Assembly: GCF_030693485.1 (NCBI RefSeq) | Contig: NZ_JAUYAN010000274.1 | Coordinates: forward strand, 1-37,279 | DNA: 37,279 nt | Source: Bradyrhizobium sp. | GTDB taxonomy: Bacteria > Pseudomonadota > Alphaproteobacteria > Rhizobiales > Xanthobacteraceae | Direction: 5' to 3' | Shown here: positions 13,359 to 15,741 of the stretch, piece by piece | Layout: the number at the start of each line of letters is the position of its first letter | How positions within the stretch are numbered: position 1 is the stretch's first letter | Program-made: the position numbers and the translations under genes | Notes under the pieces: model-generated | The model's database searches: none | What the model saw: the letters and a program-made list of their open reading frames with translations, nothing else | Told to the model about the DNA's origin: nothing

Positions 13359-13365
13359 GAGAAAA

Positions 13366-13385
13366 CGTTATAATATAACATAACG
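13366..13385 (-). promoter_or_regulatory. Zur-box-like operator
   Basis: cgttataatataacataacg: arms cgttat/ataacg form an inverted repeat; resembles alphaproteobacterial Zur boxes of the GTTATgtTATAACATAAC type, and sits immediately upstream of zinc uptake genes. Confidence 0.75.
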
Positions 13386-13398
13386 GGTGTCCACGGAG

Positions 13399-13599
13399 GG
13401 TTTTTGAGGCCGTGGATTCATTAACGTCCAGCGATAGCCGTATTGATGCGCGCTGGATGAGGGCAAGGTAGTTGACAGCGAGCTTGTCGTGGCAAGTTGC
13501 AACGCACCGACACCGTTGATCTTGTTGAAGGCTCCGGTTTGGTAGCTTGAACCACGCGCCGGGCAACGCCATCAACCCGCAGAGGCTATGGCAGCCCAT
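13399..13599 (-). pseudogene. C-terminal remnant of an IS5-type transposase
   Basis: Minus-strand frame reads ...GAWFKLPNRSLQQDQRCRCVATCHDKLAVNYLALIQRASIRLSLDVNEST..., resembling the IS5-group transposase C-terminus (R.ATRYDKLA.NFLA...ASIRLWL..NEST); no N-terminal or catalytic part present. Confidence 0.7.
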
Positions 13600-13638
13600 C
13601 AGGCTCTTGCCGCGCCGCCGACCTGGGCGGCGACATTT

Positions 13639-14343
13639 TCAAAGCCGAAGGTAGGTGTATCCTTCTTTTTTCTGAAGGCGGCTGATCTCCGCAATACCCG
13701 AAGGTACCAACACGGCCTCAGGTACCACGGCACGTGTATCGATCTGCTGGCGCGTCAATGTGTTGGTGCATACGCGAAACTCAACCCCGCGAGCACGCAA
13801 TTCGCGTAGCGCGCCAATGTAAGGTTGCCCTTCAGTATCCTGCGCCCCCTGAAGGAGGAAATTGATCCCATCGCTATGAGCGACGACAACGACCTGCAGA
13901 TTTGGCTCGGCGTCGAGATGGTTTTTCAACGTACGCAAGTTCGCCTTGACGTGATTGCCTCCGGCGAGGTGATAAACGATGCGAGTACCCTGCGCGGTCC
14001 CCGCGCTGGATTGTGCATTCCAGGGTTGCGCCAGCGCGAGCCACCCGACGATCAGCAACGCGGCGATTCCGGGAGTCGCCGCCAGACAGAATCCCAGTGA
14101 CCGCGAGGTGGCCTGTTGCGGCGCGGCTGCAAATTGAGCCTGCACCGCCTCTCGCAATCGTAACGGCGCCTTCGCAGGTTCGCAGGCGCGGGAGATCGCT
14201 GTCCGCAGTGTCTGGACGCCAGCTATTGCGGCACTGCACCTGGGGCACTCCTGCAAATGCGCCTCCACTGCGAGCGCGCTTTGCAGATCAAGCTCGCCAT
14301 CAATATAGGGGCTCAACAGGCGATTGAGTTCGGCGCATTTCAT
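13639..14343 (-). CDS. anti-sigma factor: N-terminal zinc-binding (zf-HC2) domain, TM, C-terminal periplasmic DsrE-like domain
   Basis: Start at 14343: MKCAELNRLLSPYIDGELDLQSALAVEAHLQECPRCSAAI (HxxxCxxC ZAS motif); TM GIAALLIVGWLALA; then GTRIVYHLAGGNHVKANLRTLKNHLDAEPNLQVVVVAHSDGINFLL...; ATGA overlap with the sigma gene. Confidence 0.88.
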   Translation of the reverse strand: MKCAELNRLLSPYIDGELDLQSALAVEAHLQECPRCSAAIAGVQTLRTAISRACEPAKAPLRLREAVQAQFAAAPQQATSRSLGFCLAATPGIAALLIVGWLALAQPWNAQSSAGTAQGTRIVYHLAGGNHVKANLRTLKNHLDAEPNLQVVVVAHSDGINFLLQGAQDTEGQPYIGALRELRARGVEFRVCTNTLTRQQIDTRAVVPEAVLVPSGIAEISRLQKKEGYTYLRL

Positions 14344-14900
14344 GTTCCGGTCTCCCTTGGTCTGACGCGCTCGGCGATCAAGCCCTGAAGCAGGCGGCGC
14401 GCCCGCGACAGGCGAGACATCACGGTGCCGATCGGCGTCCCGACGATGTCGGCGATCTCCTGGTACGAGCAACCTTCGATTTCCCTCAAAACCAACACTT
14501 CATGAAAGTCGCGAGGCAAGGCGCCGAGGCATTGCCGCACCATCTCGCTTTCGGCGCGCGCGATCACGGCGGCCTCGGGGTTAACCGGCAGGGTAATCAC
14601 CGCCCCGGCTGCAAGCATCTCCGCGTCATGGCGCTGTTCGTCAAAGTCCTCGGCGGGGCCGGGCAGATGCTCGCGTTGCCGAAGCTCGTAGCAGGCGTTT
14701 CGGACGATGCGCAGCAGCCAGGGTCTGGCATTATCGCCGCGCAGCGAGCCGAAAAACCTCCATGCACGCAAATAGGCCTCCTGGACTGCGTCCTCGGCAA
14801 GTCCGTCATTCTTCGCCAGCCATCGCGCAAGATTGTAGGCAGCATCGAGGTGCGGCAGCATCAGCCGCTCGAATCGCTCGCGCTCCCAGTCGTCGTGCAT
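14340..14900 (-). CDS. ECF RNA polymerase sigma factor
   Basis: Start at 14900: MHDDWERERFERLMLPHLDAAYNLARWLAKNDGLAEDAVQEAYLRAWRFF (sigma2) ... LPRDFHEVLVLREIEGCSYQEIADIVGTPIGTVMSRLSRARRLLQ (sigma4). Confidence 0.95.
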   Translation of the reverse strand: MHDDWERERFERLMLPHLDAAYNLARWLAKNDGLAEDAVQEAYLRAWRFFGSLRGDNARPWLLRIVRNACYELRQREHLPGPAEDFDEQRHDAEMLAAGAVITLPVNPEAAVIARAESEMVRQCLGALPRDFHEVLVLREIEGCSYQEIADIVGTPIGTVMSRLSRARRLLQGLIAERVRPRETGT

Positions 14901-14937
14901 AGGTTCCTCCTGATACAGGATCGGCCGGCAATCAATC

Positions 14938-14980
14938 TTATTCCCGGAACCATCGGGAATAAACGCTCGACGGCACCGGT
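14938..14980. promoter_or_regulatory. divergent ECF-type promoter pair (mirrored GGGAATAA elements)
   Basis: TTATTCCC (14938-14945) and GGGAATAA (14955-14962) face outward; each is followed 13 nt later by CCGRT (CCGAT toward sigma gene, CCGGT toward DsrE gene). Confidence 0.55.
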
Positions 14981-15050
14981 AGGACACAATGGGACGGGGG
15001 TCGACCTGACGTTCCCGCTTCGTTTCGAGGAAATCCAAGGAGAACCGATC

Positions 15051-15488
15051 ATGAGGAAATCTCTCGTCGCCGCCGCTGCTGCGCTCGCGTTGACCGCCAT
15101 GGCAACTGCCGCCGTCGCCGACAATGCGGTCGGGCCAGACAAGGTCGTCTATCACGTCAACAACACGGAGTTGCAGGCTTCCGATGCGCTGCGCAACATC
15201 GGCAATCACCTGGAAGTTAACCCGAAGGCGAAGATCGTCGTCGTAACCCATGCGCGCGGCGTCGACATGCTGTTCAAGGACGCAAAGGACAAGAACGGCA
15301 ATGCATACAGCGCCGGGATCGCGGAACTCAAACTGCAAGGAGTGCAATTCGACATCTGCCAGATCACCCTGCGCAATCGCAAACTGGAGAAGGACCAGTT
15401 CGTATCCGAGGCGACGTTCGTGCCCTCAGGCGTGGCCGAGATCACACGGCTGCAGCAGCGCGAAGGCTACGCATACCTCAGACCTTGA
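15051..15488 (+). CDS. secreted DsrE-like protein, paralogue of the anti-sigma C-terminal domain
   Basis: Signal peptide MRKSLVAAAAALALTAMATAAVADNA; PDKVVYHVNNTELQASDALRNIGNHLEVNPKAKIVVVTHARGVDMLFKDAKDKNGNAYSAGIAELKLQGVQFDICQITL...VPSGVAEITRLQQREGYAYLRP. Confidence 0.88.
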   Translation: MRKSLVAAAAALALTAMATAAVADNAVGPDKVVYHVNNTELQASDALRNIGNHLEVNPKAKIVVVTHARGVDMLFKDAKDKNGNAYSAGIAELKLQGVQFDICQITLRNRKLEKDQFVSEATFVPSGVAEITRLQQREGYAYLRP

Positions 15489-15741
15489 TCCAGGTCGTCG
15501 CTCAGACGTAGTGGCTGGACCGGTCGCCCTTCGCCACTCCGTAATTCGGCAGCCACAATTCTGGGACGTCTGCTTGGACCGAAATCCGAAGCGTCCGCGC
15601 TGGGCTCTTGTGCCAATTGTTTCGTACTCTCCTGCCACATCGCGTCATTTCGCGGCGACACAGCGACGCAGTCGCTTTCGGAGTGGAAGCAGACATTCAG
15701 CGAACCGTGCTGACAGCACCGTATTTATGAGTACGCAGTGC

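Follow-up and report, generated by a model that had tools for sequence, protein, structure and literature searches.

Architecture of the locus

The window, i.e. the whole analysed stretch of 37,279 nucleotides from a Bradyrhizobium sp. contig, carries an ECF sigma factor gene, an anti-sigma factor gene and a divergent gene for a secreted DsrE protein. The features are outlined below; Z type denotes the zinc-finger type of the module described further on.

13396..15740 (no strand): inserted cassette of about 2.34 kb, flanked by znuC and an ArsP-like permease gene and containing exactly the three genes
13639..14343 (minus): anti-sigma factor with ZAS zinc finger, transmembrane helix and periplasmic DsrE domain (Pfam and AlphaFold model)
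14125..14343 (minus): cytoplasmic zinc anti-sigma domain with C3, H29, C33 and C36 (zf-HC2, E 3e-11; RsrA-like TIGR03988, E 1e-11, below its cut-off)
14029..14091 (minus): transmembrane helix, residues 85-105 (hydrophobic stretch, helical in the AlphaFold model)
13642..13989 (minus): periplasmic DsrE domain, residues 119-234 (PF02635, E 1.4e-10 for the domain alone; own HMM; fold match to 1l1s, 2pd2, ychN and DsrEFH)
13768..13770 (minus): conserved sensor-domain cysteine C192 in the C-terminal part of the DsrE domain (76/76 modules; invariant column in A1)
14340..14900 (minus): ECF sigma factor (Sigma70_r2 and r4_2)
14919..14945 (minus): predicted sigma-operon promoter, GGGAATAA-N15-GATC (one of two matches in the 5.28-Mb genome; place and spacing the same in homologous Z-type loci)
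14955..14981 (plus): predicted secreted-DsrE promoter, GGGAATAA-N15-GGTA (the other genome match; divergent; conserved in L028, L197, L200 and L201)
15051..15488 (plus): secreted DsrE protein (PF02635, E 1.5e-12; AlphaFold pLDDT 86.5; fold match 1l1s, TMt 0.92)
15357..15359 (plus): conserved cysteine C103 of the secreted DsrE (invariant column in A2)

An earlier, sequence-only reading had described the anti-sigma factor as a zf-HC2/ZAS domain followed by one transmembrane helix and a C-terminal DsrE domain, and the profile matches and the AlphaFold model agree on exactly this architecture. Residues 3-36 matched zf-HC2 (PF13490, E 3e-11) and residues 148-232 matched DsrE (PF02635, E 5.5e-10 with the whole protein searched), and the model places a DsrE-like alpha/beta fold at residues 121-233, preceded by a single hydrophobic helix (85-105). 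The ZAS pattern HxxxCxxC together with an upstream zinc ligand is provided by C3, H29, C33 and C36, and HxxxCxxC is present in L197 and L200-L204 as well. The DsrE domain contains a sole cysteine, C192, within RVCTNTL. The sigma factor (186 aa) carries both PF04542 and PF08281, as expected for an ECF protein. The reported ATGA overlap of the sigma and anti-sigma genes was located at 14340-14343, and the conserved promoter element in front of the sigma gene suggests that this gene is autoregulated.

The secreted DsrE protein starts with a signal-peptide-like N-terminus, and its mature part contains only one cysteine, C103 in DICQITL. BLASTP aligned it to the DsrE domain of the anti-sigma factor over 115 aa at 41% identity (E 3e-32, far beyond chance), with the cysteine, one in each domain, at the same position. 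The similarity of the two domains and the retention of one cysteine in each, both noticed in the sequence-only reading, were thereby substantiated, and the structural similarity on which that reading depended was found in the AlphaFold models, both of which adopt the DsrE fold. Profile, fold and cysteine assign both domains to the DsrE/DsrF-like family: PF02635 scored 39.9 and 48.2 bits for the two window sequences against a cut-off of 22.7, and TMt values versus 1l1s were 0.86 for the anti-sigma domain and 0.92 for the secreted protein. The best structure matches of both models were MTH1491 (1l1s) and ST0148 (2pd2), followed by YchN and the DsrEFH/TusBCD subunits. MTH1491 and ST0148 are the nearest solved structures, but they are stand-alone proteins of unknown function. 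DsrEFH and TusBCD consist of cytoplasmic E/F/H subunits encoded together with dsrC/tusE, whereas the proteins described here are single-domain and either secreted or membrane-anchored; among the module neighbourhoods examined no DsrEFH/TusBCD-type neighbours (E/F/H, dsrC/tusE) were recognised.

The sequence-only reading had also spoken of a duplicated domain. The homology behind this proposal is real, but the duplication is neither recent nor local: in the DsrE-domain tree the window-type anti-sigma domains form a clade of their own (100/99) apart from the secreted partners, and judging from this tree the two domains are old paralogues. An origin of the anti-sigma domain as a recent local copy of the secreted gene was ruled out by the same tree.

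Conservation of the three-gene module

A first search with the window protein returned the full trio in only one more Bradyrhizobium MAG (L028, 93% identical), and these two MAGs are the only Bradyrhizobium-like carriers that were found. A more distant copy with the same trio layout was present in genome G623. Its anti-sigma factor had a match in 77 of the 100 genomes of the G623 family, covering 11 of 12 genera, with nearly all matches full-length, and 29 of the 30 loci fetched from this family contain the entire trio in the same divergent layout, while the thirtieth ends at a contig edge. A profile search of 349 genomes of the G623 order revealed full-length fusions in about 50 genomes from some 14 families; in 298 genomes of the Hyphomicrobiales order it gave no full-length fusion beyond the known ones. 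A restriction of the trio to two Bradyrhizobium MAGs was therefore ruled out by the G623-family, order-wide and Z-type matches. The hosting order is presumably Burkholderiales-like, and its family f120 probably corresponds to Thiobacillaceae.

For 76 modules, sampled by the sigma/anti-sigma profile, the anti-sigma DsrE cysteine is kept without exception and the divergent secreted DsrE gene is present in 61, from many families; since these loci were found via the sigma/anti-sigma search, the counts measure partner conservation and not an unbiased frequency. Conservation of the three-gene arrangement in relatives, on which the sequence-only reading had staked its proposal, is thus documented by both sets of loci. 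Counts by type are approximate, since a few rows were mislabelled by the automatic procedure (AS_L103_7765, AS_L109_5072, SEC_L186, L188, L192, L193_6747m and L195_7278m) and L202 was wrongly typed N.

Some further genes recur around the modules. In L103 (4313-5578) and L104 (4488-5678) the anti-sigma gene has as its neighbour a gene for a DegS/DegQ-like serine protease, which is a candidate for the site-1 protease; however, the protease gene also lies beside petABC, an arrangement common in betaproteobacteria. Genes for porin-like outer membrane proteins commonly follow the secreted DsrE gene (L104 7722-9014, L160, L168, L174); the divergent porin-like example in L126 gave no Pfam match.

Sequence types and repeated fusion

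Two types of the module can be distinguished. The Z type comprises the window and families f138, f166 and f168 of a betaproteobacterial-looking order (L197, L200-L204), and in the commoner N type a related anti-sigma domain lacks the zinc ligands. The sigma factors also differ in the NCBIfam model closest to them, PRK12533 for the window and PRK12511 for G623, with both matches below the cut-off. In the DsrE-domain trees the N-type sensors form one clade, the Z-type sensors form a separate clade (100/99) within the secreted VYH-type proteins, and two sensors of family f169 are placed among the secreted ACENT-type proteins. A single clade of N-type and window-type sensors was rejected by the AU test (p = 0.020), run before further Z-type rows joined. 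Consequently, there is moderate evidence, moderate because the tree alignment holds about 126 columns, that the anti-sigma/DsrE fusion or a domain replacement took place more than once. The f169 loci (L198 6706-7350, L199 1100-1744) encode N-type anti-sigma factors with an ACENT-type DsrE domain, which looks like a third fusion or domain replacement. The secreted partners, for their part, belong to at least two distant clades (VYH type and ACENT type) against one anti-sigma clade.

Promoters and predicted regulon

The intergenic region of the window contains two outward-facing promoter-like elements, one before the sigma operon and one before the secreted gene. In most lineages the divergent promoters read GGAATAA-N15-CGTC, and the Z type exhibits GGGAATAA-N15-GGTA/GGTC-like elements. 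The pattern GGAATA[AG]-N15-CGTC occurred 58 times in 108 kb (30 N-type module loci), and in the same 108 kb neither spacers of 10-14 and 16-20 nor the reversed-pattern control gave a single occurrence. With a slightly stricter pattern whole genomes contained 0-4 sites each, mostly the module pair, and the reversed control few or none. For the window genome (5.28 Mb), GGGAATAA-N15-SRTM was found only at 14919-14945 (minus) and 14955-14981 (plus). Given this promoter pair and the rarity of the motif elsewhere, the sigma operon and the secreted DsrE gene are very probably both driven by the sigma factor, which in the window genome perhaps has no further targets. The feedback control proposed in the sequence-only reading is supported at the level of transcription, since one sigma-type promoter stands before both units; the hetero-oligomerisation or ligand competition of the two DsrE domains that it put forward is hypothetical. 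Against a dedicated regulator role of the secreted protein stands that some lineages have soxYZ, a sulfur transporter or a porin instead, so that it may simply be an output.

In the first family, recurring extra motif sites lie before other secreted DsrE genes (L093-L096, L098 and L099). These genes stand at distant loci and encode a second secreted DsrE family (MKQMNKLMGALLGG...) with the same promoter motif; in L093 a gene for an AhpC/TSA-like protein is located nearby on the same strand. In two species of one genus (L101, L102) the motif precedes the gene of a secreted DUF255/YyaL-like thioredoxin-domain protein (DUF255-like by eye), and the surroundings of the L108 module contain a similar gene. 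Several extra motif sites precede genes without a clear sulfur role.

Insertion in the window genome

Bradyrhizobium relatives lack the stretch 13396-15740 and have the znuABC side and the permease side joined with about 6-70 bp between them. Because relatives lack the stretch and have the flanks adjacent, the trio appears to have been gained as one unit. Its GC content is 60.3%, compared to 65.0 and 65.5% in the 5-kb flanks. No insertion-sequence-like repeats or obvious mobile-element ends were found at the cassette ends. L028 (4866-6711) shares the insertion site and both promoter elements, its intergenic region being 140 bp versus 150 bp in the window. The nearest relatives of the cassette that were found are the Z-type loci of the other, betaproteobacterial-looking order. 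Beside the left insertion edge, just upstream of znuC, an AT-rich palindrome (GTTATAATATAAC, 13360-13390) is kept in the relatives and resembles a Zur box for the zinc-uptake genes.

Sulfur gene context

Modules that lack the secreted DsrE gene often have a porin gene, soxYZ or the gene of a YeeE/YedE sulfur transporter in its place or in the operon. In f159, soxY diverges from the sigma operon and has soxZ, SoxA-like and SoxB-like genes after it, and in f129 soxYZ and SoxA/SoxB-like genes stand downstream of the sigma/anti-sigma pair in the same orientation. The module of f122 lies inside a cluster with SoxB-, SoxX-, SoxA-, SoxZ- and SoxY-like and Sulf_transp genes. In f138 (L200, Z type) the secreted DsrE gene is followed by soxY- and soxZ-like genes, with SoxB-like and YeeE-like genes further on. 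SoxY, SoxZ and Sulf_transp of representative loci were confirmed by Pfam, and the other Sox names were assigned by eye. On a Runella plasmid, the gene for a related secreted DsrE has as neighbours a YeeE/YedE gene and a gene of the metallophosphatase/5'-nucleotidase type, which includes SoxB. The co-located sox and YeeE/YedE genes strengthen the link to sulfur, which the sequence-only reading had drawn from the DsrE family, well past a guess. One study reports that a DsrE-family protein forms Cys-S-thiosulfonate with tetrathionate and passes thiosulfate to TusA (PMC4175335).

In the window genome itself, a SoxY match was obtained on another contig, where SoxX-, SoxA-, SoxZ- and SoxB-like genes cluster with it next to an ArsR-type regulator gene (these neighbours assigned by eye). 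In the whole-genome pattern search no site matching the sigma motif was found at this cluster.

Proposed mechanism and alternatives

We consider it likely that the locus encodes a self-contained ECF sigma/anti-sigma module, whose periplasmic DsrE sensor responds to reduced, probably sulfane, sulfur in the periplasm. When the signal is absent, the sigma factor would be kept at the membrane by the zinc anti-sigma domain. Sulfur or thiosulfate donated by polysulfide, tetrathionate, a persulfidated carrier (for instance SoxYZ) or the secreted DsrE may then be bound by the one cysteine conserved in the periplasmic DsrE domain, and the loaded domain would change its state, freeing the sigma factor by a conformational change or by regulated proteolysis. 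From the near-identical promoters, free sigma factor would transcribe the sigma operon as well as the divergent gene for the secreted DsrE. The secreted DsrE may serve as a periplasmic sulfur-binding carrier or buffer, which would take sulfur from the sensor domain or hand sulfur to it, so that the feedback loop is closed. A sigma factor of this kind appears to drive, in related lineages, soxYZ, other secreted DsrE genes and the sulfur transporter gene. We infer from this arrangement what the chemical signal is, how sigma is released and in which direction the feedback runs. Against a reading based on sulfur count the possible non-sulfur roles of DsrE-fold proteins, the extra motif sites before genes without a clear sulfur role, and the position of the sox cluster of the window genome on another contig, with no motif site and with an ArsR-type regulator gene beside it.

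MucA-MucB and RseA-RseB likewise combine a membrane anti-sigma factor having a periplasmic domain with a secreted modulator; that modulator is not homologous to the sensor domain, whereas here the secreted protein is its homologue. By analogy, the secreted DsrE might chiefly be a regulator that docks on the anti-sigma DsrE domain, or competes with it, in a mixed oligomer, as MucB/RseB do on MucA/RseA, with sulfur chemistry being secondary. DsrE proteins do oligomerise (DsrEFH and TusBCD structures are among the fold matches), both domains share one fold and 41% identity, and their genes are often paired and co-regulated. However, soxYZ or a sulfur transporter stands at the paired place or in the operon in f122, f129 and f159, so that a DsrE partner is not obligatory, and the pairing of at least two distant secreted clades (VYH, ACENT) with one anti-sigma clade argues against a tight, co-evolved interface. 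We regard this docking role as rather unlikely and, because soxYZ or a transporter can stand in its place, prefer to see the secreted DsrE as a sulfur-carrying output with an additional modulating effect on the sensor rather than as a dedicated regulator.

It is improbable that the DsrE cysteine instead senses oxidants or metal as part of a general periplasmic thiol/oxidative or metal-stress response, with the sox linkage reflecting the lifestyle of the hosts. The motif sites before the thioredoxin-domain protein gene (DUF255-like, by eye) in one genus, the AhpC/TSA-like gene near one secreted DsrE target and the adjoining znuABC of the window would fit such a sensor, but in several lineages sox genes share the operon or diverge directly from it with the same promoter, and the znu neighbourhood is merely the insertion site. 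A transferred cassette that stays silent and without role in the host of the window is likewise improbable. The finding of only two Bradyrhizobium-like MAGs with the trio and the GC content below that of the flanks are in line with a passenger, yet the three frames and both promoter elements are intact and are kept in L028, where the anti-sigma factor is 93% identical.

Relation to known systems and significance

The favoured module, a sulfur-responsive ECF pair with a DsrE sensor, counts among its closest counterparts RpoE1 and RpoE4 (ECF26) of Sinorhizobium meliloti, sulfite systems that are autoregulated and control a small regulon including periplasmic sulfur oxidation (PMC3511301). As in these, an ECF sigma factor is paired with an anti-sigma factor, co-transcription and autoregulation being putative for the window genes, and the secreted-protein gene linked to S. 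meliloti rpoE1 was likewise suspected of regulation; unlike here, their anti-sigma factors were described by COG5662 and the linked secreted protein by a lipoprotein-15 motif, and a DsrE domain was not described (PMC3511301). ECF sigma-2 of Arcobacter butzleri (AB1044) activates the sox operon but, in contrast to the window module, has a broad regulon, and the available part of that source mentions neither a DsrE sensor nor a secreted DsrE (PMC3445524). SoxR of Hyphomicrobium is a sulfane-sulfur repressor that responds on cysteines and controls sox genes; it is a cytoplasmic ArsR-type protein with two crucial cysteines, whereas the window module is predicted to sense in the periplasm with one (PMC10451225). 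In the literature on DsrE with sigma/anti-sigma factors, on COG1416 and on soxY with ECF factors no description of such a module was found; what looked like DsrE in two of the sigma-factor papers proved to be DsRed. The full ECF classification may already list, by genomic context, a group whose anti-sigma factor bears DsrE.

Going further, and only tentatively, DsrE domains fused repeatedly and independently to anti-sigma factors might constitute a new class of ECF signalling, in which periplasmic sulfane sulfur is read directly on the cysteine of a membrane protein. Secreted DsrE, SoxYZ and the sensor would exchange sulfur, and the carrier pool would act as the feedback signal for thiosulfate-oxidation genes in Thiobacillus-type and many other betaproteobacteria.

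Little is known about how sulfur oxidisers detect reduced periplasmic sulfur across the membrane; SoxR, the sensor known for sulfane sulfur, is cytoplasmic. The module predicts a membrane-spanning sulfur sensor, a promoter code that is both short and exact and, across many betaproteobacterial families, a small regulon, and these predictions make an open regulatory question testable. It also illustrates how a metabolic relay domain has apparently been fused to anti-sigma factors more than once and how a three-gene signalling cassette moves as a unit.
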